DNA of 64,000 bases from Pseudoruminococcus massiliensis (lineage in GTDB: Bacteria > Bacillota > Clostridia > Oscillospirales > Acutalibacteraceae): the NCBI RefSeq assembly GCF_900291955.1, contig NZ_OLMR01000003.1, positions 265,809 through 329,808 on the forward strand, written 5' to 3'. The notes beneath the pieces were generated by a model that searched no databases, was not told where the DNA came from, and saw only the letters and a list, made by a program, of their open reading frames with translations. This document shows positions 44,901-63,803 of the stretch, in pieces; within the stretch, counting starts at the first letter, position 1; the number at the start of each line of letters is the position of its first letter. The position numbers were made by a program, and so were the translations under genes.

Positions 44901-44978
44901 AGTATATACACAAACTCCATTTGAAGAATTATAAAATCTAAGTTCTGTTTTATCTTTTAATGCAACTCTTGTATCCAT
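41949..44978 (-). CDS. Ser/Thr kinase-STAND NTPase-repeat fusion protein
   Basis: This 1009-residue multidomain protein starts with a protein kinase (about 20-310): glycine loop LARGAACIVYDA, Lys57 in VRIKE, catalytic YLDLKPDN with Asp170, metal site DFD at 190-192 in place of DFG, and GFSALE in place of APE. A STAND-type NTPase follows: GREKELQKLNEWI linker, Walker A GMGGIGKSS at 360-368, and Walker B KVILIIDN at about 435. A winged-helix-like part and about 450 residues of TPR-like helical repeats complete it (YEFISEIYEEQRDLDKAYECI). STAND proteins act as ligand-triggered switches. It may be a signalling regulator or an anti-phage sensor; the nearby CRISPR system fits the latter but does not prove it. 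It follows an HTH-like gene in one operon. Confidence 0.85.
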   Translation of the reverse strand: MDTRVALKDKTELRFYNSSNGVCVYTIQKELARGAACIVYDASYVNNSGVKESVRIKECYPFALDIERCENNFLFPNESDKDSFEKRKAEMCRAFDLGNELFSTSGLTNFTSNTVDIYELNNTIYVVTNYQEGETLSHSKFISLKDCIAVVKSTAKVIMKVHRKGYLYLDLKPDNIFLLTGTKEVVQLFDFDSLVPITAFKSGAEDCEYKISHTKGFSALELQTGKLRKVGKHTDIYAVGAILFYLVFGTIPTALDCGIYAEYSYEQSKYAAKTFQDKMYYELTDFFHHTLANFYLDRYQDMQQVIRKLEEIEKLADTAIPYILNYYASYTKAIIGREKELQKLNEWIENTGQSLLFVTGMGGIGKSSLIQSYLANNAQKFDIVISLKFYHSLKETIADDRQFVINAVMQSPQEEPDEYFIRKLAIARKLTHNQKVILIIDNFIGDNFSGVEELLKLGWKIIIITRKDILKGEYFCLNIEAIQKKSDMYSMFESYLRRTIEPYEYPMIDCIIEKVQGHTLVLELIAKQIANSFLSISEAEKLMEKNGFSEIAPEKVPYTRDFIAYTDTIKNIIDTLFISSQITEYKKSVLKGISFFGIEGIEVKLFASVYGLRTKDIINELTTDGWISINNYKIVMHPVIAEAVKGWKITDTFRKASTHIMIELKKVLKEDKRKALHLCEEFLECCKKDKELASQNPYRELFFEVLSAMPRYRESYILNNAIELIKNRGDLNGNAVIKLYEFISEIYEEQRDLDKAYECIISAEDVINAFSDDHIKGQYYYLLVGYYDYKLEGWYDTRNKEDAKVLSLLMKNLDKAIRYMKKSYHQDGKKLLAEYLRCKANILIRSNPKMKFRIDWLLNKVDDIIKKEAYEYTELGCGYYLTCAWYYTYVEPNKKIVSKYIQQAYEIESAICENDLDFIDNIIIPSANISLESGQEKKAEKCLLFGIKLCEENDEIIPFIRKKMELYTYLVDVYYFTDNKEKYSETIKIIKKANEKYKDIGLITDIKEL

Positions 44979-45030: not shown

Positions 45031-46278
45031 TCAAATGGTTTTTTGAGTGCAAGCCACACTATCAGAAGAAGCCCTCAACTCATCTTCTTTTATTATATAA
45101 AGCTCTCTCATAAAATAGCGAAATGTTTCCATTGGATATTCATCTTGCATAGCAAAGAGAAAAATCCAATCATAAGGATTTCCAGCATATAAGGTAGGAT
45201 AACCTGCATCTATAAGGTATCTGTTTATTTCTGCATAGCATCTTTCATTGTCATCATCAGCACAATAAACTTTAACATTATTTTTTAATAAGCGTTTTGT
45301 CCAATATTCATAAAAGACCAACAAAATAATGGTTTTGCGTACTAGCTCATTAGATTTATGTTCTCCTCTTAGTATAGCCTCCAAGCCTTGCCTGTCTGGA
45401 AATGAATCTTCTGCCAAAGGGTGCAATAAATCATTGTTTTTCAAAATGGGTTTTAAAGTTCTATCAGTATCAAGAACAAACAAAGGAGAATTATCATAAT
45501 CAAAATCATACAATCCCAGTATTTGAAGATAAATATCCCATACAGAACGCTTTTTTGATTCTGTCTTATCACCATTATTTATAAGATTAGGAAATAATAA
45601 AGCCTTTTCCCTTTCTGCTAAACCCTTAGATTTTTTAATTTCATTCCATATTTTCATTATGTATTTATAAGCTGTCGCATTATTATATCCGAACTGTTCC
45701 AGATTATTATTAAAAAATTGTATCAGTTCTTCCTTAGATTTAAACCTATTTATCTCTTTAATAATCGACTCAGTAAATAGCACCTCATCATTAAAATCGA
45801 CTTTTCCCTTTATATCACTTGGTGCCTTTTCAAGCAAATCTATTGTTTCAGCATAGCTCAATTCATTACTAATCGCATAATAGTAAATTGCTTCCTCAAT
45901 ATAATGGCAATCAAAGCCTCTCTGTAAGCATACTGTTCTGAAAAATTCCTCGCTTTCCTTTAAATCAAGTTTAAAAGCAAAACAAAATTGAAAAGCAATT
46001 TTTCTTTTTTCAATTCTCTTTTTCTCTGTAAACCATTTCTTTATATTTCTTGGCAAGGGTAAAATATCCGCTTTCTGAAATTTATCCTTAATAAACTCAA
46101 CCTTTTCATCAATATTCAATATATCTCCGATAAATCCCTTATTAATTATAAAAGTATCCAAAGTTTCATCAAAATCACGAAAAGATTTAGCGACAGAAAG
46201 TAGTTCTTCTGTATAGTTATCATCTTCTGGTGAAATTTCATACTTTATATTTTCAAGTTGTTCAGTATACTTTTCCAT
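45031..46278 (-). CDS. HTH-like protein partnered with the kinase-STAND gene
   Basis: This 415-residue protein has no signal peptide or membrane span. Residues about 75-150 resemble a divergent XRE-like helix-turn-helix: IPxxIKKWFTEKK-like LPRNIKKWFTEKKRIEKRK, then AFQFCFAFKLDLKESEEFFR and LQRGFDCHYIEEAIYYYAI. The rest is helical and acidic, with a C-terminal part rich in aromatic residues (YPTLYAGNPYDWIFLFAM). I recognise no named family. It is 52 nt upstream of the kinase-STAND gene, so it may regulate that operon or act as its partner. AGGAG precedes the ATG and a promoter is seen at 46366-46394. Confidence 0.6.
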   Translation of the reverse strand: MEKYTEQLENIKYEISPEDDNYTEELLSVAKSFRDFDETLDTFIINKGFIGDILNIDEKVEFIKDKFQKADILPLPRNIKKWFTEKKRIEKRKIAFQFCFAFKLDLKESEEFFRTVCLQRGFDCHYIEEAIYYYAISNELSYAETIDLLEKAPSDIKGKVDFNDEVLFTESIIKEINRFKSKEELIQFFNNNLEQFGYNNATAYKYIMKIWNEIKKSKGLAEREKALLFPNLINNGDKTESKKRSVWDIYLQILGLYDFDYDNSPLFVLDTDRTLKPILKNNDLLHPLAEDSFPDRQGLEAILRGEHKSNELVRKTIILLVFYEYWTKRLLKNNVKVYCADDDNERCYAEINRYLIDAGYPTLYAGNPYDWIFLFAMQDEYPMETFRYFMRELYIIKEDELRASSDSVACTQKTI

Positions 46279-46750: not shown

Positions 46751-49129
46751 ATGGAATATGCAGCACATTTTACAGAAGATGGAAGATTACAAACTGTTAA
46801 AGAGCATCTCATAAGTGTAGCCGAAAAAGGTAAAAGGGACTCTGAGCTTATAAATATGCCAAGCCTTTATTATCTTGCAGCAATTTTACACGATATGGGT
46901 AAAAACACTGCTCGCAGTGATGAATATCAAAGGACAGTTGGTTCAGGTGGTGAGTGGAACAAAGGTAAGGTTGTACATTCAAATTGTGGCGGAAGATATA
47001 TATACGAAAAATTTATAAAGAACAATGATTCTGATAAAACAAATAACTATACTGTTGAAATTATTTCTTCGGTTATTATGTCACATCATGGTTTGTTTGA
47101 TTTTGATTATCCTAAATCAGGCAAAGAAAATGGCTTTGTTACAAAAATAAATAATACAAATTACGATTACAATGAATGTAAAAAGCTTACACTCGATGAG
47201 GTTATAAGCGAAAAGGAAATTGAAGAGCTTTATCTCAACGCTAAAAATGAAGTTAATGAATTTCTGAATTTTTGCAGTAAAGATGAAGATAAAAGAAAAG
47301 ATGGCGAATCTTTAGAAAGGATTAAGTTATTTAATTGTTCTTTGCTGATAAGAGTGTTACTTTCAATATTGGTTGATTCTGACCATTCTGATACTGCGGA
47401 ATTTGTTAATCGGATAGAACGACCTAAGTTATATGGAGATGCAGAACTATGGGAGAAATGTTGCAATTATTTTGAAGAAAAGATTAAGCTATTTAATAAA
47501 GATACTGAACTCAATAAGATAAGAGCAGAAATATCTGATAAGGCATTAGCTTATTCAGAAAATTCTGAAAATATCGTAAGAATGACTGTTCCAACAGGTG
47601 GTGGAAAGACTATAAGCTCACTAAGATATGCTATTCATCATGCTAAAAAATTTAATAAGAACAGGATTTTTTATGTTGCTCCTTTTAATTCAATACTTGA
47701 ACAGAATTATAATGAAATAAAATCTTTTTTGCCTGATGATGTTTCTGTTTTACCACATTTCGGAGATATGCTTGATTGTAATTATAATGAAAGTTTAGCT
47801 ACTGAACAAAATATTAAATATATGAGTGAAAATTGGAATTCTTATGTTATAGCTACATCAATGGTACAGTTTTTAAATTCTCTTTTTGATGGAAAAATAA
47901 GTTCAATAAGAAGAATGAGAGGTCTTATAAATTCGGTAATTATTATAGACGAGGTGCAGTCTATTCCATATGAATTTATCAGATTATTTAATATGGCAAT
48001 GAAATTTCTTGCTTATATATGTAATTGTACAATTGTTTTATGTACAGCAACACAACCACCTTTTGAACATATGGATTATTGTTTAAGGCTTGATGAAAGC
48101 TGTGAAATGATAAACGATTTTGAAGATTACAGCGAAAAAATGAGGCGTACAAGAATTATAGATAAAACAATTCCAGGAGGATATACTGCTGATAATGTCG
48201 CTGATTTTTTACATTCTCTTTCAGAAGATTGTCGAACTATTCTTTGCGTAGTTAATACAAAAAAAGCGGCTTTTGAGGTGTTTAAAAGTGCAAAGCATTT
48301 ATTTGAAGATGAGAAAATAGTGCTTGTGCATCTTTCAACTAATATGTGTCCTGAACATAGAGCTAATGTTATCAAAAATATGAAAGATGAAATGAAAAAT
48401 GGCAAGCGTGTTCTTTGTGTAAGTACTCAGCTTATTGAGGCGGGCGTTGATATTTCTTTTGAAACAGTTGTCCGCTCTCTTGCTGGTACAGATAGTATTG
48501 TACAGGCGGCAGGCAGATGTAACAGAAATGCTGAAAGAGATATTGGCTATGTTTACATATTGAATATAAGCAATGAATATGAAAATGTTTCAAGCTTGAA
48601 AAGCATTCAAAAGGGTAAAAGTGCTACTATTGGTTTGCTTAAACGCATAAAGAAAAAACCAGATGAATATGAGGATTTGCTTGATTTAAAAGCAATAAAA
48701 AAGTTTTATATTGATTATTATAAAAATTTTGACAAAAAAGATTTATATGTTGAAGATTTTACATGCTCAATATTTGAAATGCTTTCCACTAATGAAAAAG
48801 GCTCATACCATACTAAAACACTTCTTAGGGCGGCTATGAAAACCGCTGGAGAATGCTTTGAAGTTATAACTGATATAAATGAAAGCGTCCTTGTACCCTA
48901 TAAAGACGGCAAGGAGCTTATATCCGAGCTTTTATCAGAGGGATATAAGGATTATGACGCAATTATAAAAAAGGCTCAGCGATATTTGATAGGATTGCCG
49001 AAAAATAAGCTTAAAGACACTTATATAAGTGTCGATAAGAAAACTGGTATTCGTTTTCTTGCAGATGGATATTATGATGAAATATATGGTTTCTCGGAAA
49101 ATCCTAATTTGGATTTTTGCTATTTCTAA
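46751..49129 (+). CDS. cas3: CRISPR-associated helicase-nuclease Cas3 (type I-C)
   Basis: This 792-residue protein joins an HD nuclease and a superfamily 2 helicase. The HD motif is AAILHDMGKN (His47-Asp48), with a further histidine pair in IMSHHGLFDFD. The helicase has Walker A VPTGGGKT near 278, Walker B IIIDEVQ near 400, motif III CTATQPP, and motifs V-VI STQLIEAGVDISFE and DSIVQAAGRCNRN. It is recruited by Cascade to the R-loop, unwinds and degrades target DNA. It has its own promoter with a long leader. It is separated from the rest of the operon by 205 nt that hold a regulatory guide RNA gene and a second promoter. Confidence 0.97.
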   Translation: MEYAAHFTEDGRLQTVKEHLISVAEKGKRDSELINMPSLYYLAAILHDMGKNTARSDEYQRTVGSGGEWNKGKVVHSNCGGRYIYEKFIKNNDSDKTNNYTVEIISSVIMSHHGLFDFDYPKSGKENGFVTKINNTNYDYNECKKLTLDEVISEKEIEELYLNAKNEVNEFLNFCSKDEDKRKDGESLERIKLFNCSLLIRVLLSILVDSDHSDTAEFVNRIERPKLYGDAELWEKCCNYFEEKIKLFNKDTELNKIRAEISDKALAYSENSENIVRMTVPTGGGKTISSLRYAIHHAKKFNKNRIFYVAPFNSILEQNYNEIKSFLPDDVSVLPHFGDMLDCNYNESLATEQNIKYMSENWNSYVIATSMVQFLNSLFDGKISSIRRMRGLINSVIIIDEVQSIPYEFIRLFNMAMKFLAYICNCTIVLCTATQPPFEHMDYCLRLDESCEMINDFEDYSEKMRRTRIIDKTIPGGYTADNVADFLHSLSEDCRTILCVVNTKKAAFEVFKSAKHLFEDEKIVLVHLSTNMCPEHRANVIKNMKDEMKNGKRVLCVSTQLIEAGVDISFETVVRSLAGTDSIVQAAGRCNRNAERDIGYVYILNISNEYENVSSLKSIQKGKSATIGLLKRIKKKPDEYEDLLDLKAIKKFYIDYYKNFDKKDLYVEDFTCSIFEMLSTNEKGSYHTKTLLRAAMKTAGECFEVITDINESVLVPYKDGKELISELLSEGYKDYDAIIKKAQRYLIGLPKNKLKDTYISVDKKTGIRFLADGYYDEIYGFSENPNLDFCYF

Positions 49130-49233
49130 ATAAAAAGCCAAAAGCCCTATCTTTCGATAGAGCCTTTGGCAAACTACAATAATAAAGTCAAAGTAATAAT
49201 TTCAATCCACATAACTAAGATATTAGCTATGAC
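49130..49233 (-). ncRNA. CreR-like crRNA-like guide RNA between cas3 and cas5c
   Basis: The minus strand encodes a predicted RNA of about 100 nt. From the 5' end it has an 8-bp hairpin ATAGCTAA-TATC-TTAGTTAT (49230-49211, one G-U pair). The exact last 12 nt of the CRISPR repeat, GTGGATTGAAAT (49210-49199), come next. The spacer-like guide starts at 49198 with TATTACTTTGACTTTATTAT. A terminator follows, with 15-nt arms 49170-49156 and 49151-49137 and a TTTTTATTT tail present only on this strand. The canonical repeat likewise has an 8-bp stem with a 4-nt loop next to the same handle, but the stem sequence here is wholly different, so structure is kept and sequence is not. Cas5c should cut it like a repeat. 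The guide matches the cas5c promoter. The parts are seen; the function is inferred. Confidence 0.8.
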
Positions 49234-49239
49234 AAAAAT

Positions 49240-49268
49240 ATTATAGCCTAAAATAAATTATTTTACAA
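49240..49268 (-). promoter_or_regulatory. Promoter of the CreR-like RNA
   Basis: On the minus strand, TTGTAA (49263-49268), 17 nt, TATAAT (49240-49245). The predicted start near 49233 lies just before the hairpin of the guide RNA. No minus-strand protein gene follows, so the RNA is its only evident product. Confidence 0.65.
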
Positions 49269-49274
49269 ATTCTA

Positions 49275-49303
49275 TTGACAAGTATAAAAAATCGATATAT
49301 AAT
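49275..49303 (+). promoter_or_regulatory. Perfect promoter of the cas5c-cas2 operon
   Basis: TTGACA (49275-49280), 17 nt, TATAAT (49298-49303). It is strong by consensus and overlaps the target of the CreR-like guide. Its -35 box is 7 nt from the -35 box of the opposing creR-like promoter, so the two polymerases may also interfere with each other. Confidence 0.85.
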
Positions 49304-49321
49304 AAATTCAAATTAATAGAA
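49299..49321 (-). promoter_or_regulatory. Predicted Cascade target (operator) over the cas5c promoter
   Basis: On the minus strand a TTC (49321-49319), the type I-C PAM, is followed by TATTAATTTGAATTTATTAT (49318-49299). It matches guide positions 1-20 except at 6 and 12, which are bases flipped out in type I Cascade hybrids. The site covers five of six bases of the -10 box and the start point. The incomplete match should allow binding and repression but not cleavage. Confidence 0.8.
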
Positions 49322-49334
49322 AGGAGTTTGTGAG

Positions 49335-50093
49335 GTGAAATATAAAAATGAATTTTGTTATAAGGTCTATGGAGATTATGCACTTTTTTCCGACCCTATA
49401 ACAAGAGTTGGTGGAGAAAAGATGAGTTACCCTATACCTACATATTCAGCTCTTATAGGTATTACAAAAGCTATCTATTTTAAACCGACTTTGCTTTATG
49501 TGATTGATTCTGTAAAAGTGCTTAAACCAATAAGAACGGTATCTAAGGGAGTCAGACCAATTAAATACAACGGCGGAAATGACCTCTCAATCTATACCTA
49601 TCTTACTGATGTTGCTTATGCAGTAAAAGGGCATTTTATTTGGAACGAAAATCGTCCCGAATTTGCAAATGACAGAAATGAGGACAAGCATTATCAAATA
49701 CTTAAACGAATGATAAAGCTTGGCGGCAGACGCTCTCCTCAGCTTGGTGTTAGCGAGTGTCCAGCATATGTTGAGCCTTGTAATTTTGATGAGGAAAAAA
49801 GTTGCTATGATGATGGCAATAACTCGGAAATCTCATTTGGCTTAATGTATCACAGCATAATATATTGTGATGAGGCTATTAACGAAGAAGATAAAGGTAA
49901 GATGACTGTTTGTTTCCATACGCCAGTTATGAAAAATGGACAGATTGATTTTATTCGACCTGAGCAATGCACAATTAAGCGTCATATAAGAGATGCTAAA
50001 CAGAAAGTTTTTGATGCAGAAAAATGTGAGAGTGTTGATACACTTCATACGGAATTATTTAGGGAGGTAGATAAAAATGAGTTGGATAACTGA
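49335..50093 (+). CDS. cas5c: Cas5c (Cas5d), type I-C pre-crRNA endonuclease
   Basis: This 252-residue protein is the I-C Cas5 that also processes pre-crRNA, because I-C lacks Cas6. It starts with YKVYGDYALFSDPITRVGGE and PIPTYSALIGITKAIYFKPT, the family pattern, and has GGRRSPQLGVSECPAYVEP in the middle. It cuts at the base of the repeat hairpin and stays bound to the 11-nt handle. The start is a GTG with AAAGGAG about 8 nt upstream. It is the first gene behind the CreR-targeted promoter and overlaps cas8c by 17 nt. Confidence 0.95.
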   Translation: MKYKNEFCYKVYGDYALFSDPITRVGGEKMSYPIPTYSALIGITKAIYFKPTLLYVIDSVKVLKPIRTVSKGVRPIKYNGGNDLSIYTYLTDVAYAVKGHFIWNENRPEFANDRNEDKHYQILKRMIKLGGRRSPQLGVSECPAYVEPCNFDEEKSCYDDGNNSEISFGLMYHSIIYCDEAINEEDKGKMTVCFHTPVMKNGQIDFIRPEQCTIKRHIRDAKQKVFDAEKCESVDTLHTELFREVDKNELDN

Positions 50094-51993
50094 AACTGCC
50101 GCCTTATACGATGAAATCAAGGAAAAGGTTAATAATAGCGATGAATGGGAACCTATTCTTCCGCTTTATCATTCTACAAGTAATGCACAGATACAGGTTA
50201 CTATTTTTAGCGACGGAACATTTTCACACGCAGAAGTAGTTGATGCTGATGATGCAAAAACTATAATACCTGTTACGGAAGATTCGAGTTCGAGAAGTTC
50301 TGGGATTGCACCACATCCACTTTGTGATAAGCTGATTTATATTTCAGGTGATTACAGCACGTATGTTGCAAAAGCTAAAAGTAATGCTGATGAATATTTT
50401 GTGACATATATCAAGGCTTTAAAGGCTTGGGCAGAGTCGGAGTATTCGGATATTTGTATTACAGCTATATACGATTATCTTAGCAAAAGAATACTCATAA
50501 ACGACCTTATAGGCGATGGGATACTGAGATTAAAAGATGCTGTTCTTGATGAAGAATATAAAATAACAAAGTCAGTAAAGCAAATAGATTCATTTGTACG
50601 CTTTGTTGTCAATGATTTGGATTCAGGGGAAAATATAAAGGTTTGGAAAAGTAAGGTACTTTTTGATAAATACATAGCTTATTATGAATCTTTAGGCAAG
50701 AAAAGAGATTGCCAGCTTTGTTATGCAAGCGGAAAAATCGTTCCTGTAACATATAAGCATATGGCTAGAATTCGAAATTCAGGTGATAGTGCCAAACTTA
50801 TCTCTTCAAACGATGAATCGAATTTTACTTATAGAGGCAGATTTGCAAATAGAGAAGAAGCTTTTGCAGTAGGTGAAATTGTAAGTCAGAAAGCTCATCT
50901 TGCTTTAAAGTGGCTTATAAAAACTGGTGGCATAAGTGTTGGTGATGAAAAATATGTTGCGTGGGAAAGCTGTCTGAATGAAATACCAAATGTGTTTGGT
51001 AGAATAGTGCTTGATGCAAGCGAAAATTCTGGCTCTTTTGTAAAGGATAAGGACGATAAGGTTTATGCAAAGACGGCAGAGCAGTATAAGAATATAATAG
51101 AAATTGCAATTAAGGGATATAAAAAAAATCTGGATTTAAATTCTTCAAAGGTTATTCTTATGGCATTAGATTCTGCTACACCTGGCAGGCTTTCAATTAT
51201 TATGTATCAGGAACTTACTTCTACTGATTTTTATAAAAATATTCAAGATTGGTATAGCAAAGTATACTGGCATAGTTGCTATAAGACAGATGATGGTGAA
51301 GTTATACATTGTGTGCAGACACCTACCCCTATCGAGATTGCAAGATGTGCTTATGGTAATGAGCGAGATGGAGAGCTTATTATTGATTATAAATCTGGTA
51401 TTTTCAAGACGGTAATTAAGCAAATCTATCCTTGCATTACTCTTGGTGTGAGATTTCCAGAAAACATACTGAAAAGAATTTTCACAAGAGCCTCAAATCC
51501 TCAGCTTTATAGTGAACAAAACAACTGGAAAAGGGTTCTTGATGTCTGTTGTGCATTATATAGAAAATATTATGAAGATAAAGGAGTTGAACTTACTATG
51601 GAACTTAATAGAAGTTACAATAATAGAAGCTATCTTTATGGTAGACTTATGGCTGTTGCTGAGAAACTTGAAACTGATACATATGATGATAACGAGGCAA
51701 GAATGACTAATGCGGCAAGATTTATGAACTCGGTTATTGCATCTCCATATAAGTCTTGGGGAAATGTTAGTAAAAGACTTATCCCATATATAAACAAAAT
51801 ACAAAGTAAAAACCCAGGTCTTTGTGTTTATTATCAGAAAGAGCTTAGAGAAATATATAATATGTTTAAAGCTGGAGAATATGAAATGAAAAAGCCTCTG
51901 GAGCCTTTATTCTTTATGGGCTACTATGGCGAACAACAATATCTTTATACATCAAGAAAAAACAAAAATGATGATAACAAGGAGGATTTATAA
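50077..51993 (+). CDS. cas8c: Cas8c (Csd1), Cascade large subunit
   Basis: This 638-residue protein matches Csd1/Cas8c in length and order. It begins with AALYDEIKEKVNNSDEWEPI and LPLYHSTSNAQIQVTIFSDG. The mid region has CQLCYASGKIVPVTYKHMAR and NFTYRGRFANREEAFAVGEI, typical of the family, and HLALKWLIKTGGISVGDEKY follows. It recognises the PAM and holds the R-loop in the I-C Cascade, and its gene also yields the small Cas11c subunit from an internal start in other I-C systems. The C-terminal part from about residue 500 (SYNNRSYLYGRLMAVAEKLE) fits that. Confidence 0.95.
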   Translation: MSWITETAALYDEIKEKVNNSDEWEPILPLYHSTSNAQIQVTIFSDGTFSHAEVVDADDAKTIIPVTEDSSSRSSGIAPHPLCDKLIYISGDYSTYVAKAKSNADEYFVTYIKALKAWAESEYSDICITAIYDYLSKRILINDLIGDGILRLKDAVLDEEYKITKSVKQIDSFVRFVVNDLDSGENIKVWKSKVLFDKYIAYYESLGKKRDCQLCYASGKIVPVTYKHMARIRNSGDSAKLISSNDESNFTYRGRFANREEAFAVGEIVSQKAHLALKWLIKTGGISVGDEKYVAWESCLNEIPNVFGRIVLDASENSGSFVKDKDDKVYAKTAEQYKNIIEIAIKGYKKNLDLNSSKVILMALDSATPGRLSIIMYQELTSTDFYKNIQDWYSKVYWHSCYKTDDGEVIHCVQTPTPIEIARCAYGNERDGELIIDYKSGIFKTVIKQIYPCITLGVRFPENILKRIFTRASNPQLYSEQNNWKRVLDVCCALYRKYYEDKGVELTMELNRSYNNRSYLYGRLMAVAEKLETDTYDDNEARMTNAARFMNSVIASPYKSWGNVSKRLIPYINKIQSKNPGLCVYYQKELREIYNMFKAGEYEMKKPLEPLFFMGYYGEQQYLYTSRKNKNDDNKEDL

Positions 51994-51995
51994 TT

Positions 51996-52844
51996 ATGTC
52001 AGTACTTAATAACAAGGTGGATTTTGTAGCTTTTATTTCCGTTAATCATGCAAACCCTAATGGCGACCCAATCAATGGTAATCGTCCGAGAGATACAATG
52101 GAAGGTTTTGGAGAGATTTCTGATGTCTGCATTAAGCGTAAAATCAGAAACAGACTTCAGGATATGGGTGAATGTGTATTTGTACAATCAGATGAGCGCA
52201 GCGACGATGGTTGTAAGAGCCTTAAAGAACGAGCAGATAGCTATGAGGAATTGAAAAAGCTTTCAAAAGGTAAGGAAACAGGCAAAGATGCTTTTGCAAA
52301 ATTGGCTTGCGAAAAATGGATTGATGTAAGAACATTCGGACAGGTTTTTGCTTTTAAAGGCGATACGGTTTCGGTAGGCGTAAGAGGCCCTGTGACTATT
52401 CAACCTGCATTTAGTCTTGAACCAGTCGAAATTGAAGATATACAGATTACTAAGAGTGTTAATAGTGAAAGTAAGTCAGGTAAAGCATCTGATACAATGG
52501 GTATGAAGCATAGAGTCAGGTTTGGTATATATGTATTGAAAGGAAGCATCAACTGCCAGCTTGCAGAAAAAACTGGCTTTACAGAAGAAGACGCTGAGAA
52601 GATTAAAAACGCAGTAGCAACACTTTTTGAGAATGATTGTTCATCAGCTCGCCCTGAAGGAACTATGAACATTGAAAAGCTTTTCTGGTTTAAGCATAAC
52701 TGCAAGTCGGGACAATATTCATCAGCAAAGGTACATAACAGCGTTATCGCAAAGGCTTTGTGTGAAGAGCCTACATCAGCTAAGGATTATGAATTTATAT
52801 ATGATGGAAGTCTTGAAGGTTTAACTCCGGAAGTGATTGAATGA
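51996..52844 (+). CDS. cas7c: Cas7c (Csd2), Cascade backbone subunit
   Basis: This 282-residue Cas7 has the Csd2 start VDFVAFISVNHANPNGDPIN and GNRPRDTMEGFGEISDVCIKRKIRNRLQ, then DVRTFGQVFAFKG and RGPVTIQPAFSLEPVEIEDI. Several copies line the crRNA spacer and kink it every sixth base, which leaves bases 6, 12, 18 and so on unpaired. This matters for the CreR-like guide, whose mismatches are at 6 and 12. GGAGG precedes the ATG. It overlaps cas4 by 4 nt. Confidence 0.96.
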   Translation: MSVLNNKVDFVAFISVNHANPNGDPINGNRPRDTMEGFGEISDVCIKRKIRNRLQDMGECVFVQSDERSDDGCKSLKERADSYEELKKLSKGKETGKDAFAKLACEKWIDVRTFGQVFAFKGDTVSVGVRGPVTIQPAFSLEPVEIEDIQITKSVNSESKSGKASDTMGMKHRVRFGIYVLKGSINCQLAEKTGFTEEDAEKIKNAVATLFENDCSSARPEGTMNIEKLFWFKHNCKSGQYSSAKVHNSVIAKALCEEPTSAKDYEFIYDGSLEGLTPEVIE

Positions 52845-53500
52845 CTTATGATGATGACAACATACTAAGTATATCTGGAATACAACATTTTGTGTTTTGC
52901 CGCAGACAATGGGCTTTAATTCATATTGAACAGCAATGGGCAGAAAATTTACTTACTGTTAGCGGCGAAATTATGCACAATAAGGCTCATGACAATACTT
53001 TCTCGGAAACAAGAAACGGTGTAATAGTATCAAGAGGAATGCAAGTTGCTTCATATGAACTTGGCATATTCGGCGAATGTGATGTTGTTGAATTTATTCC
53101 GTCTGAAGGCGGTGCCTTGCTTTATGATAAGCCTGGAAAATATACTATCATTCCCGTTGAATACAAGCATGGTGAACCAAAGGTATCAGATGCAGATATA
53201 TTACAGGTTGCCGCACAAGCTTTGTGCCTTGAAAATATGTTTTGTACAAGCATAAACGAGGTGCATATATTCTATGGTAAAACAAAACGCAGACAGAGAA
53301 TAGAGCTTACTGATGATATAAGAATTCGCTTAAAGAGTGTAGTTGAAGAAATGCATGAACTTTATAGACGAAAATATACACCTAAAGTTAAGCAAAATAA
53401 AAATTGCAGAGCGTGTTCACTAAAGGATTTATGCTTGCCAAAGATAACAAAAATAAAAACTGTAAAAAGATATATTTCTGATATGACAAACGAGGATTGA
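52841..53500 (+). CDS. cas4: Cas4 exonuclease, adaptation
   Basis: This 219-residue RecB-type nuclease has the first cluster cysteine in FVFCRRQWALIHIE (near residue 21) and the C-terminal trio in NCRACSLKDLCLP. The nuclease core is seen in GECDVVEFIP, PVEYKHGEPKVSD and ADILQVAAQALCLENMF. It trims prespacers and checks the PAM before Cas1-Cas2 insert them. It overlaps cas7c by 4 nt and lies 3 nt before cas1, so translation is coupled. Confidence 0.95.
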   Translation: MTYDDDNILSISGIQHFVFCRRQWALIHIEQQWAENLLTVSGEIMHNKAHDNTFSETRNGVIVSRGMQVASYELGIFGECDVVEFIPSEGGALLYDKPGKYTIIPVEYKHGEPKVSDADILQVAAQALCLENMFCTSINEVHIFYGKTKRRQRIELTDDIRIRLKSVVEEMHELYRRKYTPKVKQNKNCRACSLKDLCLPKITKIKTVKRYISDMTNED

Positions 53501-53503
53501 ATT

Positions 53504-54535
53504 ATGAAAAAGCTTCTTAATACACTCTATATCAGTTCTCCGGATACATATTTATCACTCGATGGAGAAAATGTTGTTCTATCAAAAGAAAGACAGGAAA
53601 TAACGAGAGTTCCATTACATAACATAGAATCAATTGTTACTTTGGGATATAGTGGAATGAGTCCTGCTTTGCTTGGAAAATGTGCTGATAATAGTATAGG
53701 TGTTTCATTTCTGAGCAGAAGTGGAAGATTCCTTGCAAATGTGGTAGGTTCATATTGCGGTAATGTGATTCTTAGGAAAACCCAATATAAACTTTCTGAT
53801 GATGAAAATGCTTGTACTGAAATAGCTAGAAATATGATAGCTGGAAAACTGTATAATTCTCGTTGGGTTATTGAAAGAGCAACTCGTGATTATCCTAATT
53901 CGCTTGATATTAATAAATTAAAGAGTGTTTCTGCAAAACTTAAAGATTCAATAGCAAATCTTAATGACTGCAAAAATACCGAACAGCTTAGAGGTATTGA
54001 AGGCGAAGCTGCAACGAGATATTTTTCTGTATTTAATGATTTGATTTTACAACAAAAGGAGGACTTTGTTTTTAATGGAAGAAACAGAAGACCTCCAACA
54101 GACAGAGTTAATGCTTTGTTATCATTTTCGTATACACTGCTTACAAATATGACTGCTTCAGCTCTTTATTGTGTGGGACTTGACCCATATGTTGGCTTTA
54201 TGCACAAAGACCGTCCTGGAAGAGTATCGCTTGCACTTGATATGATAGAAGAACTCAGAGCGGTTTTTGCAGACCGTTTTGTGCTTACTGTAATAAATAA
54301 AAAAATCGTGAATAAGAATGATTTCTTTATCAAAGAAAATGGAGCGGTCTTGCTTAATGATGATGGTAAAAAGAAAATTATTAAGTCATGGCAGAATAAA
54401 AAATCACTTGAAATAAAACACCCATTTTTAGAAGAGAAAGTTGAATGGGGTATGGTTCCTTATGTTCAGTCATTACTTCTTGCAAGATGTCTTAGAGGTG
54501 ATCTTGATGGTTATCCGCCCTTTATGTGGAAGTAG
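53504..54535 (+). CDS. cas1: Cas1 integrase (type I-C)
   Basis: This 343-residue protein starts with KLLNTLYISSPDTYLSLDGE. The catalytic residues are visible as Glu in GIEGEAATRYFSVFND, His in VGFMHKDRPGRVSLALDMIE and the downstream acidic EELRAVFADRF. It inserts spacers at the leader end with Cas2. It is complete and intact, in line with the very long array. Its stop is 12 nt before the cas2 start. Confidence 0.96.
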   Translation: MKKLLNTLYISSPDTYLSLDGENVVLSKERQEITRVPLHNIESIVTLGYSGMSPALLGKCADNSIGVSFLSRSGRFLANVVGSYCGNVILRKTQYKLSDDENACTEIARNMIAGKLYNSRWVIERATRDYPNSLDINKLKSVSAKLKDSIANLNDCKNTEQLRGIEGEAATRYFSVFNDLILQQKEDFVFNGRNRRPPTDRVNALLSFSYTLLTNMTASALYCVGLDPYVGFMHKDRPGRVSLALDMIEELRAVFADRFVLTVINKKIVNKNDFFIKENGAVLLNDDGKKKIIKSWQNKKSLEIKHPFLEEKVEWGMVPYVQSLLLARCLRGDLDGYPPFMWK

Positions 54536-54546
54536 GTGTAATTTAT

Positions 54547-54837
54547 ATGCTTGTGCTTATTACCTATGATGTAAATACTGAAACTACTGACGGCAAAAAA
54601 CGCTTGCGTAAGGTTGCTAAAGAATGTGTTAACTATGGAAAAAGAGTTCAAAACTCGGTTTTCGAGTGTGTTATGGATGCAGCAACAAGCAGGCTAGTCA
54701 AAGAAAAACTAATAAATATAATAGATGAGAAATTTGATAGCATAAGATTCTATTACCTTGGAAATAACTATAAAACTAAAGTGGAACATTATGGTATAGA
54801 TAATACATTCGATGTGGAGGGAGTGTTGCTATTTTAG
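54547..54837 (+). CDS. cas2: Cas2 (type I-C)
   Basis: From the ATG at 54547 the protein has 96 residues, the usual I-C Cas2 length; the open frame reaches back to an ATG at 54526 that overlaps cas1. AGGTG lies about 9 nt upstream. It has the ferredoxin-like start MLVLITYDVNTETTDGKKRL with the conserved Asp, and NSVFECVMDAATSRLVKEKL. It bridges two Cas1 dimers in spacer insertion. It is the last cas gene; the array leader starts at once. Confidence 0.95.
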   Translation: MLVLITYDVNTETTDGKKRLRKVAKECVNYGKRVQNSVFECVMDAATSRLVKEKLINIIDEKFDSIRFYYLGNNYKTKVEHYGIDNTFDVEGVLLF

Positions 54838-54999
54838 TGCGAATAGTAAGCTTACATAAATTTACAAGGATATTCGCACCATAAAAATATAATTTTGCAA
54901 ATCTAATATTAAATCTGCTTTTATATACCTAACTATAATTTTGTGAAAAAGTGCAGATATATAGTTGATTTAAGAGTAAATATTATGTTGGATTTTGCT
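54838..54999 (+). promoter_or_regulatory. CRISPR leader
   Basis: This AT-rich stretch of 162 nt lies between cas2 and the first repeat. GTGCGAATA (54837-54845) and TATTCGCAC (54871-54879) form a 9-bp inverted pair that encloses a GTAAGCTTAC palindrome. It may end the cas transcript or serve as an integration-host-type signal. TATAAT at 54934-54939 could be the array -10 box, but no good -35 is present. Confidence 0.65.
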
Positions 55000-57900
55000 G
55001 TCGCTCTCCTCACGGAGAGCGTGGATTGAAATGCCAAGCGTGATTTGTACGGTACCACCGTCACAATGTCGCTCTCCTCACGGAGAGCGTGGATTGAAAT
55101 CAGTAACACAAAAAGCGGAGGCAATAGCTGTTGTGTCGCTCTCCTCACGGAGAGCGTGGATTGAAATTGACGAACATCATAAGCGAAGCTATAAGCCCCA
55201 GGTCGCTCTCCTCACGGAGAGCGTGGATTGAAATCTGTGGATTTTATTTTATCTACTTTAGTTGCTTGGGTCGCTCTCCTCACGGAGAGCGTGGATTGAA
55301 ATATAAGTTGCCGAATCAAAATAAATATTTCTTGCAACGTCGCTCTCCTCACGGAGAGCGTGGATTGAAATCAAGTCTCCGCATCAAACATCATTTTAAA
55401 ACCATAACGTCGCTCTCCTCACGGAGAGCGTGGATTGAAATATCATCACACTTAGACACAAACGAAAAATAGTCAGTCGCTCTCCTCACGGAGAGCGTGG
55501 ATTGAAATCAAAATCACGAGCATTAAACATAATGCTTGCTTCGTCGCTCTCCTCACGGAGAGCGTGGATTGAAATTGCTGTTACTGTTGGTAAAGACGGC
55601 ACCCTCGGCTGTCGCTCTCCTCACGGAGAGCGTGGATTGAAATCTATTAATTCCGAAAGGAGGTTAAATTATGATTAAGGTCGCTCTCCTCACGGAGAGC
55701 GTGGATTGAAATTGTGTATCATATTGGTATCCAATAAGACAATGTAGTCGCTCTCCTCACGGAGAGCGTGGATTGAAATCTATAATTCGTTATGGTACTT
55801 CATTTATCTTTAGTCGCTCTCCTCACGGAGAGCGTGGATTGAAATATAAACTTACGAACAAATTTAATGCCAACAGACACGTCGCTCTCCTCACGGAGAG
55901 CGTGGATTGAAATAAATGCACGACAGCCTTTACCTGACATTTGCACACGTCGCTCTCCTCACGGAGAGCGTGGATTGAAATTGATGAGATTATCAGAAAT
56001 AAAGCGTTAAAAGCAGAGTCGCTCTCCTCACGGAGAGCGTGGATTGAAATGCGTATCGTCACTGATACACGAGAAGTCATTTAAAGCGTCGCTCTCCTCA
56101 CGGAGAGCGTGGATTGAAATCGCTCACGAAGCGGAAGCAGGTAAACAAAGTAGTGTCGCTCTCCTCACGGAGAGCGTGGATTGAAATATGATGGGTCGCC
56201 ACCATGCTCGCCACAGATACCGTCGCTCTCCTCACGGAGAGCGTGGATTGAAATGCACTTTGCAAGATTGGTATGCTGGTAAACATAGTGTCGCTCTCCT
56301 CACGGAGAGCGTGGATTGAAATTCGTTATTAGCCGTTATAATTGCAATTGGATATACAGTCGCTCTCCTCACGGAGAGCGTGGATTGAAATCTATATAAT
56401 GCAAATTTCAATCCTTACAGGATAATGTCGCTCTCCTCACGGAGAGCGTGGATTGAAATTTGAGCTTCTGAGGAATATTATCACTCTGCTTAAACGTCGC
56501 TCTCCTCACGGAGAGCGTGGATTGAAATGTGCCAAGCACCGTCTTGATGTTGTTCAGGAACTGTGTCGCTCTCCTCACGGAGAGCGTGGATTGAAATCTT
56601 TCTGACTTGTATATATAAAATCCGCTTTGGATGTCGCTCTCCTCACGGAGAGCGTGGATTGAAATTTATATAATCAAGTTAATGCCCTTTTGCACCTCGG
56701 TCGCTCTCCTCACGGAGAGCGTGGATTGAAATGGGTAAAAACAAAAAAGGACGGTGCTAAAAATGAGTCGCTCTCCTCACGGAGAGCGTGGATTGAAATT
56801 TGCATACTTTAACCTTAGAAAAACTCAATATAGTCGCTCTCCTCACGGAGAGCGTGGATTGAAATAATATGCCAAACATTGATATGGAGAATGAATCGGG
56901 TCGCTCTCCTCACGGAGAGCGTGGATTGAAATCTGTTTTGCGGCGGCAATAGAACGATTACTAATAATAGTCGCTCTCCTCACGGAGAGCGTGGATTGAA
57001 ATCGGGCTGTAAATTGTTTCATAATGATAACCGCTAGTCGCTCTCCTCACGGAGAGCGTGGATTGAAATCAAAGCACAATTTGGTCATTATTATTTATAC
57101 AGTGTCGCTCTCCTCACGGAGAGCGTGGATTGAAATGAGTATCTGTAAGCCCTAAACGATGTAATTTAAGAAGTCGCTCTCCTCACGGAGAGCGTGGATT
57201 GAAATAAAATGCAGAAGGTCAAGATGTTAAGTATGGTCATGTCGCTCTCCTCACGGAGAGCGTGGATTGAAATATCAGCGGAATAATCGTTGTCGTTCTG
57301 CTGGTTCGGTCGCTCTCCTCACGGAGAGCGTGGATTGAAATCGTGTCTGCGGCACAGCATATCATTGACACTGGTAGTCGCTCTCCTCACGGAGAGCGTG
57401 GATTGAAATATTTTCAACAGGTCAGCGAAGACCACGAACGGAAAGTCGCTCTCCTCACGGAGAGCGTGGATTGAAATTTGTCTTGCTATGACTATACAAT
57501 AACACTTTCAAGAGTCGCTCTCCTCACGGAGAGCGTGGATTGAAATGTGAGAGTAGAGCAGACCGAACAGGTTTGCCATACCCGTCGCTCTCCTCACGGA
57601 GAGCGTGGATTGAAATTATGAGGACATGAAGAAGCGTCAGATGACAAGCGTCGCTCTCCTCACGGAGAGCGTGGATTGAAATCTTTAGCCAATTTTATAG
57701 TTTGTATTATCAAGCTGTCGCTCTCCTCACGGAGAGCGTGGATTGAAATCCAGATAAGAAAATAGAAATAATTTACGGTAATACTGTCGCTCTCCTCACG
57801 GAGAGCGTGGATTGAAATGGTATGATTCTTGCTGTCGGTATCGGTGTTAAATTGTCGCTCTCCTCACGGAGAGCGTGGATTGAAATGCTTTAATCGCTCT

Positions 57901-60900
57901 AAGGCTCGTTGCTATGACACAGTCGCTCTCCTCACGGAGAGCGTGGATTGAAATCAAAGTCTGTAACAAGCGTTGATGATTATACTGCAGTCGCTCTCCT
58001 CACGGAGAGCGTGGATTGAAATATCAGTATAAGCACGAATAAGTGTATTGCCTGTTTCAGTCGCTCTCCTCACGGAGAGCGTGGATTGAAATCGCCATAA
58101 CATCACCTCCTTATCTGATTGTTGGCTGTCGCTCTCCTCACGGAGAGCGTGGATTGAAATTTGAGGTTGTATATTTTAATCTCAAGCTCCATACGGTCGC
58201 TCTCCTCACGGAGAGCGTGGATTGAAATCGTTTATATATGCAGTTGCGGCAACAGCTCGTTTGTCGCTCTCCTCACGGAGAGCGTGGATTGAAATCATTG
58301 TTTAAAAATCTCCTTTGTAGATAGAACCACCGTCGCTCTCCTCACGGAGAGCGTGGATTGAAATTCAGCACAAAAGGCGGCGAAAAAAATAACTGAGTCG
58401 CTCTCCTCACGGAGAGCGTGGATTGAAATGAGAGGTGGTAATTATAATCTTAATGACTATATAAGTCGCTCTCCTCACGGAGAGCGTGGATTGAAATTCG
58501 ATTTAGTAATATAGTTTTGCTGAAATGTATCGTCGCTCTCCTCACGGAGAGCGTGGATTGAAATCTATCCTTCGCAGTCTTGGATTTACCATTGCCACTG
58601 TCGCTCTCCTCACGGAGAGCGTGGATTGAAATGGATTTAAAATAATGATTATCAACATCATTAGTGTCGCTCTCCTCACGGAGAGCGTGGATTGAAATAT
58701 ATACTTAAACGGTATATCAAATTTAGGCGGTGGTCGCTCTCCTCACGGAGAGCGTGGATTGAAATGAGTTAGGAGACATTATCTCCTTCAACCTCACCAC
58801 TGTCGCTCTCCTCACGGAGAGCGTGGATTGAAATAATAAAGAACGGAGGTGAATGTCGTGCAGACAAGAGTCGCTCTCCTCACGGAGAGCGTGGATTGAA
58901 ATACCGACACGGTGGCTACTCTTACCGTGGTGAACACGTCGCTCTCCTCACGGAGAGCGTGGATTGAAATCTATGTTGGCGGTAAGAGTCCCTATACATG
59001 TTTGGTCGCTCTCCTCACGGAGAGCGTGGATTGAAATCTTTGTGTCCTCTGCCTTGTATATGTGCGGTTTGGTCGCTCTCCTCACGGAGAGCGTGGATTG
59101 AAATTGAATGGTATCTACTTCAATTTCAATAATGTAGAGTCGCTCTCCTCACGGAGAGCGTGGATTGAAATATTGGCAGACATACAGCTCCGGTCAAAGA
59201 GGTAACTGTCGCTCTCCTCACGGAGAGCGTGGATTGAAATTCCGTCCTTGAGGGTTATGCGGAGTATTACAGCGTCGCTCTCCTCACGGAGAGCGTGGAT
59301 TGAAATTGCTCGACTATTAAGCCCACTCTGACATCAAAGCTGTCGCTCTCCTCACGGAGAGCGTGGATTGAAATTGTCAGATAGGCTCAATCACCTCGAA
59401 GCGATTATGTCGCTCTCCTCACGGAGAGCGTGGATTGAAATCCGTCATATATCCACCTGTCATTATATCTGGATAAGTCGCTCTCCTCACGGAGAGCGTG
59501 GATTGAAATCTTTTTGATTGCCGTTGTATCAATGCGAGAGGAAGTCGCTCTCCTCACGGAGAGCGTGGATTGAAATGCACTCAAGGTCAACAATGAAATC
59601 ATTATGATACCGGTCGCTCTCCTCACGGAGAGCGTGGATTGAAATATTGTATTTATACACTACATTATATTCCATTTTGTCGCTCTCCTCACGGAGAGCG
59701 TGGATTGAAATTTGATGATGTTGTACCTATATTACGATTTTTTATAGTCGCTCTCCTCACGGAGAGCGTGGATTGAAATAGCTTGCGTTATATCTTTATC
59801 TTCTCTAAGTCCTCGTCGCTCTCCTCACGGAGAGCGTGGATTGAAATGATAGATATGGAAGATTTATATACACTTCTTAATATGTCGCTCTCCTCACGGA
59901 GAGCGTGGATTGAAATAATCTGATATACAAACGATATTGAAATTATCCAAAACAGCGTCGCTCTCCTCACGGAGAGCGTGGATTGAAATCGAAAGCGTCC
60001 ACCGGGTAAACCTCGAAAGAGTGCGTCGCTCTCCTCACGGAGAGCGTGGATTGAAATCAGGATAAGTCCTCGTCCATAATGACACGACCGTTGCGGTCGC
60101 TCTCCTCACGGAGAGCGTGGATTGAAATCCTGGTGGTGAGATAGACCACCTCGACAACATCTGTCGCTCTCCTCACGGAGAGCGTGGATTGAAATAGAAT
60201 CGTAATAAAAAGAAGGTGAAGCGAAATGTTTGTCGCTCTCCTCACGGAGAGCGTGGATTGAAATCACAAGTGAAGCGGCTGTCTCAAAGTCCGACCATGA
60301 GTCGCTCTCCTCACGGAGAGCGTGGATTGAAATACCGGAGACTGACATTGAAGCTCTGATTGCAGAAGTCGCTCTCCTCACGGAGAGCGTGGATTGAAAT
60401 GCAACTCGTTTCGGTCGAGAGGTGGGTCACAGGCAGTCGCTCTCCTCACGGAGAGCGTGGATTGAAATGTTTGTACCTGCACCCTTAGCATTTACAGACA
60501 GAAGTCGCTCTCCTCACGGAGAGCGTGGATTGAAATAATAAACGAAAAGCAAGTTGTTATGATACAATGGGTCGCTCTCCTCACGGAGAGCGTGGATTGA
60601 AATAGCTTAACTTAATAAAATAAAATAAAATAAAAATTGAGGTGGTCGCTCTCCTCACGGAGAGCGTGGATTGAAATCGCTTTTGCTGTTGATGGTGCTA
60701 CTACTACTACTGTCGCTCTCCTCACGGAGAGCGTGGATTGAAATGCACATCAACAACATTCGGCGGAATTGTTGGCATGGTCGCTCTCCTCACGGAGAGC
60801 GTGGATTGAAATATATAATCCAAACTCACCTCTGTTTGAATTATATCAGTCGCTCTCCTCACGGAGAGCGTGGATTGAAATGCTAAGACGGCTATGAACG

Positions 60901-63803
60901 ATTACACAATGGAGGACGTCGCTCTCCTCACGGAGAGCGTGGATTGAAATCCGACAGAGTACGAAGAATAAGGAGGACAACATGTCGCTCTCCTCACGGA
61001 GAGCGTGGATTGAAATGGCGTATCGGCTCTAAGTGGGGTCACTCTCTATGGGTCGCTCTCCTCACGGAGAGCGTGGATTGAAATTCGAGCGGCGTATGCA
61101 AGCCAAAGCTGCCGGGGAGTCGCTCTCCTCACGGAGAGCGTGGATTGAAATTCCGATAATGACCGAGCAATGCTCCTGTATATCTAGTCGCTCTCCTCAC
61201 GGAGAGCGTGGATTGAAATTTATTGTTATTGCAGTAGTAAAAGTAGTTAAAAATGTCGCTCTCCTCACGGAGAGCGTGGATTGAAATGATATTTAGTTTG
61301 GCGACTTGTAATGATATGCCGAGTCGCTCTCCTCACGGAGAGCGTGGATTGAAATTTGTAAATGGAGAATTGTATGCAGTCACACCCGAAGTCGCTCTCC
61401 TCACGGAGAGCGTGGATTGAAATTCCAATACCTCCAGGCAATTTACTTGCCATATAGTCGCTCTCCTCACGGAGAGCGTGGATTGAAATAACGCAACAAA
61501 AGTAGCACAAAGACTTGAAGAAGTCGCTCTCCTCACGGAGAGCGTGGATTGAAATAGCATATGTAAGAGTTATCCAACGACACTTCTTTAGTCGCTCTCC
61601 TCACGGAGAGCGTGGATTGAAATTGTTTTAGCTGCTTGGATAGCAGCCGTAGCCATATGTCGCTCTCCTCACGGAGAGCGTGGATTGAAATGTAAGCATT
61701 TGAAAGAGCGTTTTCCAATGTGCAAATGGTCGCTCTCCTCACGGAGAGCGTGGATTGAAATTCGGAGGTTAATCTTAAAGCCTCCGCCCATCACCCGGTC
61801 GCTCTCCTCACGGAGAGCGTGGATTGAAATAGCTGCGAACGCATTAACTGCAACTACTGACATAGTCGCTCTCCTCACGGAGAGCGTGGATTGAAATTAA
61901 GAAATTTAGAAATATACTTAATGAAAATGGGTGTCGCTCTCCTCACGGAGAGCGTGGATTGAAATCGTAAATGGGTGACAAGTGAAATTCTTCCCTCAAT
62001 TGTCGCTCTCCTCACGGAGAGCGTGGATTGAAATTCTTTTGCATTTTTTGTTTTTGCATATTATCGTATGTCGCTCTCCTCACGGAGAGCGTGGATTGAA
62101 ATCTATATAATCCAAGACTTTACCCCAGCCAAATGGGTCGCTCTCCTCACGGAGAGCGTGGATTGAAATTTCATGGTAAGACCACTCGTAACGGTAAGTC
62201 TACTGTCGCTCTCCTCACGGAGAGCGTGGATTGAAATATTTGCGTAATCAATTAATTTGTTACGCTTTGTGTCGCTCTCCTCACGGAGAGCGTGGATTGA
62301 AATTGCGATTTAATCGCAATATATATATTTAAAATCTATGGTCGCTCTCCTCACGGAGAGCGTGGATTGAAATATAACCATGTGTCCAGTCGAGGCTTGT
62401 TTGACTTTAGGTCGCTCTCCTCACGGAGAGCGTGGATTGAAATCAGGAGAAACGACATTTAAATACGAATACGACAGGTCGCTCTCCTCACGGAGAGCGT
62501 GGATTGAAATAGCTCCCAGCTCTACTAAGCGAGAGAGTGTCACTGGTCGCTCTCCTCACGGAGAGCGTGGATTGAAATAGAAAACGGCTTAGAAATCGTG
62601 GATATACAAATAGTCGCTCTCCTCACGGAGAGCGTGGATTGAAATGCTTGAGGACTATATCACTGTTGCGGATGTAAGTACAAGTCGCTCTCCTCACGGA
62701 GAGCGTGGATTGAAATCGCAGGAGCGATTGAGGGAGTATTAAGTAGCCAAAGTCGCTCTCCTCACGGAGAGCGTGGATTGAAATTGCCGCCAGTTTGCGA
62801 ATCGTTGAGGGGCAAAAAGTCGCTCTCCTCACGGAGAGCGTGGATTGAAATCGCTACTGTTCGGTTATCGTTGCGGTATGAGATTAGTCGCTCTCCTCAC
62901 GGAGAGCGTGGATTGAAATTTCATACCAGCCGAAAACAGATTGCCTAATTGCGGTCGCTCTCCTCACGGAGAGCGTGGATTGAAATGTCTAAATTTCCGT
63001 TTTGTATACCATTTGATATAGTCGCTCTCCTCACGGAGAGCGTGGATTGAAATACAAATTGCGTATTTAAAAATTGTGCATATATACGTCGCTCTCCTCA
63101 CGGAGAGCGTGGATTGAAATAAGACCTCATACAGCGTTTTTAGTTGGCTTGAGGGGTCGCTCTCCTCACGGAGAGCGTGGATTGAAATCGAGCAGGATAT
63201 GTGGAAGTATTCGTCATTTTGGTACGTCGCTCTCCTCACGGAGAGCGTGGATTGAAATCCTCCGAGGAGACGAATCAATCCTCATTGTTATCCAGGTCGC
63301 TCTCCTCACGGAGAGCGTGGATTGAAATGATTGATAAGCTCCAGCCAGCTCTCAAGGATACTGTCGCTCTCCTCACGGAGAGCGTGGATTGAAATAAATA
63401 TTAACGGAGTTATACGCTTACTCGGCGGAGGGTCGCTCTCCTCACGGAGAGCGTGGATTGAAATTGCTTTTAATTCAGCTTTAGAGTACTTGTTGATAAG
63501 TCGCTCTCCTCACGGAGAGCGTGGATTGAAATTGATAGTCTCCACGGCGCAAAATGTAAGGCCACTCGGTCGCTCTCCTCACGGAGAGCGTGGATTGAAA
63601 TGACGACGGCTTTCGCCTGATTTTTTGCCGCCTTGTCGCTCTCCTCACGGAGAGCGTGGATTGAAATTTATTGTTGAAGCATTGGAAGCTCCAGCTGATA
63701 CAGTCGCTCTCCTCACGGAGAGCGTGGATTGAAATCAAATTGGCGATAGAATGGGGGCAAAATTGGCTCAGTCGCTCTCCTCACGGAGAGCGTGGATTGA
63801 AAT
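55000..63803 (+). CRISPR. Type I-C CRISPR array, 130 repeats and 129 spacers
   Basis: The repeat is 33 nt. It starts GTCGCTCTCCTCACGGAGAG and ends CGTGGATTGAAAT. An 8-bp stem CGCTCTCC/GGAGAGCG with loop TCAC precedes the handle, typical of I-C. By marking each repeat start I counted 130 copies, first at 55000 and last at 63771, with a mean period of 68 nt. All copies look identical. Spacers are mostly 33-37 nt; extremes are 32 (58365-58396), 40 (59917-59956) and 41 (60604-60644). Open frames seen across the array are artefacts of the repeat. The leader end is at cas2 and the far end is interrupted by an IS element. The uniform repeats and intact adaptation genes point to an active system. Confidence 0.97.

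Follow-up and report, generated by a model that had tools for sequence, protein, structure and literature searches.

CreR, in which a CRISPR effector represses its own cas genes through a guide RNA, has been described for subtypes I-B, I-E and V-A (Liu et al. 2023; reviews PMC13131331, PMC12737573 and PMC12948488). CreTA modules were reported to have one or two repeats, which are degenerate (PMC9458426), and their guide RNA CreA to need only an 11-bp seed (PMC10989794). Among the matches listed in a literature search, no title or abstract opening mentioned a cas-regulating guide RNA of type I-C. Because CreR is known from I-B, I-E and V-A and no I-C case was found in this way, the element described here is regarded as an I-C variant, its priority being provisional. 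Shmakov et al. reportedly described in 2023 crRNA-like elements and mini-arrays, including lone repeats in cas loci whose spacers partly match cas promoters, mostly in type I systems. Workman et al. are said to have shown in 2021 a tracr-L autorepression of Cas9, in which the effector represses its own operon via a natural short guide.

Curated models showed that the window (the whole 64,000-nucleotide stretch of Pseudoruminococcus massiliensis DNA analysed here) contains a type I-C locus in the order cas3-cas5c-cas8c-cas7-cas4-cas1-cas2, followed by a CRISPR array, with a gap of 205 bp between the end of cas3 (49129) and the start of cas5c (49335). The array repeat reads GTC-GCTCTCC-TCAC-GGAGAGC-GTGGATTGAAAT. 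The repeat end GTGGATTGAAAT, which the initial annotation had located in the gap, was found there and occurs 153 times in the genome, 152 times forward and once in reverse. Since 130 of the forward copies lie in the array of the window and 22 in an array on another contig (C2), the unit in the gap is the sole copy outside arrays. The 22 copies of the same repeat handle at C2:15644-17134 could belong to a second array or to an array continued across a contig break.

Elsewhere in the window, the minus strand at 41949-44978 encodes a protein of 1,009 aa in which Pfam recognised a protein-kinase domain and, after it, an NB-ARC/STAND-type ATPase domain, and PD-T4-6 kinases were nearest in PADLOC; this is possibly a defence gene adjoining the CRISPR locus. 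Three minus-strand open reading frames beside it (45031-46278, 41088-41669 and 40198-41091) matched nothing in Pfam or PADLOC at E 0.001, and perhaps they form one defence island with the kinase-ATPase gene.

Table 1. Features of the type I-C locus and of the predicted guide RNA unit in the window.
Feature	Position	Strand	Remarks
cas3	46751..49129	+	TIGR01587, TIGR01596; predicted to lie outside the regulated unit
Intrinsic terminator of the guide RNA	49127..49170	-	15-bp stem 49170-49137, then T-tract
Guide TATTACTTTGACTTTATTAT	49179..49198	-	
Degenerate single type I-C repeat	49199..49233	-	GTC (49233-49231); 9-bp stem CATAGCTAA/TTAGTTATG with loop TATC (49231-49210); 11-nt handle TGGATTGAAAT (49209-49199)
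Predicted Cas5c cut, 11-nt 5' handle left	49209..49210	-	inferred from Cas5d biochemistry (PMC5965380)
Predicted guide RNA promoter TTGTAA-17 nt-TATAAT	49240..49268	-	10/12 consensus bases; TTGTAA 49268-49263, TATAAT 49245-49240
cas5c promoter TTGACA-17 nt-TATAAT	49275..49303	+	12/12 consensus; TTGACA 49275-49280, TATAAT 49298-49303
Target (protospacer) in the cas5c promoter	49299..49318	-	18/20 identical to the guide; only positions 6 and 12 differ
PAM TTC	49319..49321	-	directly 5' of the target
cas5c, cas8c, cas7, cas4, cas1, cas2	49335..54837	+	curated models; predicted regulated operon
CRISPR array	54999..63803	+	130 repeats within the window; source of competing crRNAs

The unit in the gap (Table 1) starts with GTC, as the array repeat does, which was missing from the initial annotation. 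Because both this start and the handle end are those of the array repeat, the unit was read as a whole degenerate repeat, not as a 12-nt tail alone. Both repeat ends are kept, and the stem between them is A/T-rich and unrelated to that of the array repeat; the hairpin given earlier as 8 bp was found to have nine pairs, one of them G-U. The minus-strand promoter proposed before was also present, and its -10 box lies 6 nt 5' of GTC, so that the RNA is predicted to start at GTC. The single repeat is followed by a terminator, a second repeat being absent from the unit. This terminator, whose T-tract had been assigned to the minus strand only, was the sole terminator-like site in 49080-49400 (0.1 expected from shuffles). 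The predicted fold of the guide RNA had a z-score of -5.3, with none of 200 shuffles equally good. A search of 49080-49400 against Rfam returned nothing at E up to 1. Parts of the gap matched 64 phage records, the best 10 of which were SPbeta-type Bacillus phages matching query bases 126-202 (the stretch of the guide RNA promoter).

When the letters were re-read by coordinate, the 18/20 agreement between guide and cas5c promoter, the two mismatches and the adjoining TTC stood as described in the initial annotation. The promoter called perfect there indeed has all consensus bases, and five of the six bases of its -10 box, together with the predicted start site, lie within the target. The cas5c start is 32 nt past this -10 box. 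The PAM combined with the 14 bases that pair within target positions 1-16 occurred once in the 2.43 Mb genome, and the reversed pattern was not found. TTC has been reported as an I-C PAM in Xanthomonas (PMC8406640).

A set of 177 oriented type I-C loci, the window included and many of them from metagenome assemblies, was searched for similar units. Scanning by similarity to the Cas5c of the window gave 38 loci, of which 37 were distinct in the set and 12 of these positive. Cas5c-family searches of 394, 391 and 398 genomes at the levels of order, class and phylum gave matches in 90, 61 and 110 genomes, respectively, with overlap. Of the 244 other genomes with a Cas5c-family match, 139 contributed 140 regions, selected mainly for score and for completeness towards contig ends and not by the element; they gave 139 distinct loci, 24 of them positive. 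Two duplicates (L068 and L077) were dropped. In the main test, the 420 nt preceding cas3 and the 420 nt preceding cas5c were searched for each handle end, and the DNA within 400 nt for a match to its guide. The match had to be flanked by a YYC or TTT PAM and to agree at 10/10 of positions 1-5 and 7-11, or at 9 or more of these with at least 3/5 at positions 13-17.

By this test 37 elements were found in 37 of the 177 loci. Twenty of them precede cas3, 17 precede cas5c, and 34 are on the minus strand; the other 140 loci gave none. A PAM-flanked match accompanied 31 of 127 candidates with the handle end ATTGAAAN, 3/33 with GTTGAAAN and 3/67 with ATAGAAAN, in comparison with 0/256 for eight control 7-mers. 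The guides were distinct in 36 of the 37 elements. The match in the window was among the best of the 37, with 10/10 in the seed and 5/5 at positions 13-17, and those of L093 and L213 appeared to be the weakest. One further locus (L112) had a full seed match just beyond the distance limit and was counted in the tree only. When a smaller set of 116 loci was tested earlier, a matching partner accompanied 29/35 lone handles upstream of cas3 or cas5c and 1/25 elsewhere. Reversed guides of that set matched in 0/35, shuffled guides in 32/1,750 at 9/10 and in none at 10/10, and guides tried on other loci in 27/1,184 at 9/10, several of which were near relatives.

Inspection by eye of 17 relatives without an element revealed a repeat-like unit with an altered handle in one of them (L135). 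Upstream of its cas3 are GTC, a stem-loop, the handle TGGATTTAAAT (array handle ATTGAAAT) and a terminator-like hairpin, with no obvious target. Altered handles of this kind escape the scan, so 37 may be an undercount. In another locus (L118), three forward lone handles 137 nt apart and without a promoter match were observed upstream of cas3; they are perhaps the remnant of an array in which every second repeat was altered.

To examine the pairing without these assumptions, ATTGAAAN candidates were scanned with no PAM required and with all of positions 1-16 counted. At 14/16 or better, 24 of 127 candidates matched (controls, 5/256). The PAM of these was TTC in 20/24, and the mismatches fell on position 6 in 18 and on position 12 in 14, with at most 2 at any other of positions 1-16. 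At 13/16, the matches were 35/127 against 20/256, with TTC in 26/35. Skipping positions 6 and 12 gave 29/127 matches (controls, 3/256), whereas seven other pairs of positions six apart gave 7-11. Over the 37 elements, position 6 matched in 7 and position 12 in 8 (near the baselines of 0.26 and 0.23), positions 1-5 and 7-11 matched in 33-37, positions 13-16 in 29-35 and position 17 in 21, and from position 18 on the matching was near baseline. Guide bases 6, 12, 18 and so on were reported to be flipped out in type I-E Cascade (PMC5965380), and TTC as PAM, together with the mismatches at positions 6 and 12, was taken as a fingerprint of Cascade-guided DNA recognition. Within clades, paired positions showed 53 coordinated changes against 14 that were not, in contrast to 0 against 15 at position 6 and 2 against 14 at position 12. 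The co-change counts are partly built in by the choice of matching pairs, and one clade of five gives ten pairs, but the contrast with positions 6 and 12 is not built in by that choice. Together with the 37 of 177 loci against 0 of 256 controls, the recovery of the TTC and 6/12 rule strongly supported the prediction of a CreR-like, cas-regulating guide RNA made in the initial annotation.

The architecture of the unit was shared as well. The repeat start GTC was present in 32/37 elements (10.2 after shuffling), and in 26 of these 32 a -10 box ended 5-6 nt before it (about 4 after shuffling), so in those 26 the predicted RNA start coincides with the first repeat base. The stems of several elements had shrunk to 4-5 pairs. 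A flush perfect hairpin was present in 28/37 elements (20% after shuffling) but also in 34/96 unpaired candidates, and it is therefore a poor discriminator. A strict terminator followed the guide in 20/37 (0.95 after shuffling); several of the other elements had a strong hairpin with a poorer T-run. The 17-nt target overlapped the best-scoring promoter in 5/37, below the 10.6 expected at random, and a 37-nt footprint did so in 23/33, compared with 17.9 at random and 15 when flipped. Promoter overlap, not being clearly enriched across loci, was dropped as a main argument. Promoter calls are unreliable in A/T-rich gaps, and the promoter step therefore rests mainly on the perfect promoter of the window itself.

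All three elements beside arrays with unusual handles shared the handle of their array: in L123 and L130 the arrays end with GATAGAAAT and the elements carry ATAGAAA, and in L125 the array mostly ends with GGTTGAAAT and the element carries GTTGAAA. The elements of L122 and L133 (GTTGAAA) and of L093 (ATAGAAA) adjoin arrays with ATTGAAAT and thus differ from them, which makes the tracking of the array imperfect over the three handle forms searched. In a rapidly built Cas5c tree with 176 rows (38 positive, counting L112), the distribution required at least 22 changes, 14 of which were forced by well-supported branches. The element was clustered on this tree (34.9 changes with shuffled labels, 0/500 as low), yet scattered. 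Of 29 matching records of plasmid-borne I-C loci, 14 were tested, nine of them outside Bacillota or partial, and none of the 14 passed the main test with the handle of its own array where an array was found. The plasmid pY5S7-1 of Paenibacillus amylolyticus Y5S-7 (L217, ∼7524), the only named isolate among the near misses, has a unit of GTC, stem and GGATTGAAAA in its cas3-cas5c gap, with a guide match of 9/10, then 1/5, located 474 nt before cas5c. Another near miss was a plasmid-borne locus of Tistrella (9/10, then 2/5).

From its letters, the unit in the window was read as one degenerate repeat, a promoter-matching guide and a terminator, the predicted RNA of which would likely be cut by Cas5c, load into Cascade and repress cas5c to cas2. 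The closest relative (L036, an uncultured Ruminococcus with a Cas5c 95% identical) has kept the stem and handle, but compared with the window it lacks a stretch holding the remainder of the guide as well as the terminator; its promoter differs and the seed match is 7/10. The initial annotation had named, beforehand, loss of the match in close relatives that keep the gap as evidence against the claim, and L036, with its truncated guide and diverged target beside a remaining stem and handle, partly fits this. This loss of pairing was read as a decay in one lineage. In a third member of the genus, stretches of 3.2-3.7 kb surrounding the cas5 matches contained no TGGATTGAAA. The same decay could have left the unit of the window idle, as a remnant of an autorepressor that functions in relatives, and the stem of the window is unlike that of the array. 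Every part is intact in the window, however, its match ranks with the best of the 37, and stems unlike those of the array are usual among the elements, so that we consider such a remnant quite unlikely.

Solitary repeats which inhibit type I-C systems exist, as reported for the phage-borne RacrIC1 (PMC10651486), and the unit is likewise one repeat with its own promoter and terminator; it might thus be a decoy that ties up Cas5c and Cas7, the guide being irrelevant. This is very unlikely: the unit is located in the cas locus of the host and not on a mobile element, and a decoy has no need of a PAM-flanked guide against a cas promoter, yet such guides were found in 37 loci with mismatches confined to 6 and 12. 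The guide might instead be the antitoxin of a CreTA-like addiction module, with a small RNA or peptide in the gap as toxin. CreA works by the same principle, and CreT toxins are described in reviews as small and easily missed. But the matched promoter precedes and reads into cas5c, element and promoter together take up the gap, no open reading frame of 80 aa or more is present in it, and the genome has no second copy of the exact target with its PAM; a module of this kind is considered highly improbable. Chance likeness in A/T-rich DNA is hardly credible although the gap is A/T-rich and the loosest test was not empty in controls (20/256 at 13/16), because the main test gave none in 256 controls against 31/127 and nearly all guides are distinct; local duplication was ruled out as the source, since the resemblance sets in right after the handle and the PAM and leaves out positions 6 and 12.

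The best reading is a CreR-type RNA in a single-repeat form ended by a terminator, through which Cascade would likely repress its own operon. Several results count against it: the lost pairing in L036, the 140 loci without an element, the lack of clear enrichment of promoter overlap, the hairpins of unpaired candidates, the guides that also match other loci, the handles of L122, L133 and L093, and the failure of all 14 plasmid-borne loci. In this predicted mechanism, the guide RNA would start at the GTC of the repeat, and Cas5c would cut below the stem. Cas5d was reported to cut I-C pre-crRNA and to leave an 11-nt handle (PMC5965380), a length which TGGATTGAAAT fits. The Cas7 backbone would flip out guide bases 6 and 12, so that pairing would be needed only in the segments 1-5, 7-11 and 13-16 or 17. 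Bound to the cas5c promoter, Cascade would block RNA polymerase and lower the expression of cas5c to cas2, and in the gap form cas3 would stay outside the regulated unit. Because the pairing ends early, the R-loop would be too short for the action of Cas3. In a type I-B archaeon, a 24-nt spacer was reported to repress strongly without interference or primed adaptation, and 16- and 20-nt spacers to repress weakly, only to about two thirds in one strain, and the 20-nt spacer to 44% in another (PMC10989794). These data suggest that a match of 16-20 nt may bind without cutting, with a strength to be measured. As crRNAs from the array would compete for Cascade, the loop would act as a gauge of free Cascade, and the repression would be relieved once Cascade is lost, for instance to an anti-CRISPR.

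It seems moderately probable, in addition, that the I-C autorepressors form a class of their own, in which a single shrunken repeat, transcribed from its first base, precedes a guide 16-17 nt long in three segments, and a terminator closes the unit. Such elements would have been gained or lost many times, with a handle that tends to follow the array and with positions 6 and 12 drifting freely. The gap form would lower Cascade and the adaptation genes and spare Cas3, so that loss of Cascade, as to an anti-CRISPR, would lead to new Cascade.

If this is true, a common CRISPR subtype lacking Cas6 also gauges its own effector by a guide RNA, and the promoters, gaps and Cascade levels of I-C systems are not independently alterable in strains with the element. 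The 36 distinct natural guides provide a ready data set on I-C target recognition. They indicate the positions left free by evolution (6, 12 and 18 onward) and suggest that about 16 nucleotides in paired segments are enough for a match to be kept. The elements could also serve as natural, compact starting points for silencing genes with I-C systems without cleavage.

Among the known systems, tracr-L is reportedly similar in having a natural short guide and a self-repressing effector, but it belongs to type II, is derived from tracrRNA and is unrelated in RNA and protein. The elements of Shmakov et al. reportedly share the lone repeat in a cas locus and the spacer that matches a cas promoter. 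RacrIC1 is similar as a solitary type I-C repeat RNA; in contrast, it is presented as a phage-borne inhibitor, with no promoter-matching guide in that account (PMC10651486), whereas the unit of the window is in a host locus and has a PAM-flanked target. CreTA shares the degenerate lone repeat, the short-seed guide and Cascade as repressor (PMC9458426, PMC10989794); unlike the window unit, it represses a toxin RNA instead of the cas operon, and it was described for I-B archaea with Cas6. With CreR as reviewed the unit has in common a crRNA-like RNA encoded outside the array and next to the cas genes, a guide that is partly complementary to a cas promoter, and a predicted autorepression that is relieved when Cascade is scarce. 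The window differs from it in that its system is of type I-C, where Cas6 is absent and Cas5c processes the pre-crRNA; in that the unit consists of one repeat and a terminator, while one review words CreR as mini-CRISPRs with two repeats; and in that its RNA is predicted to start at the repeat itself.
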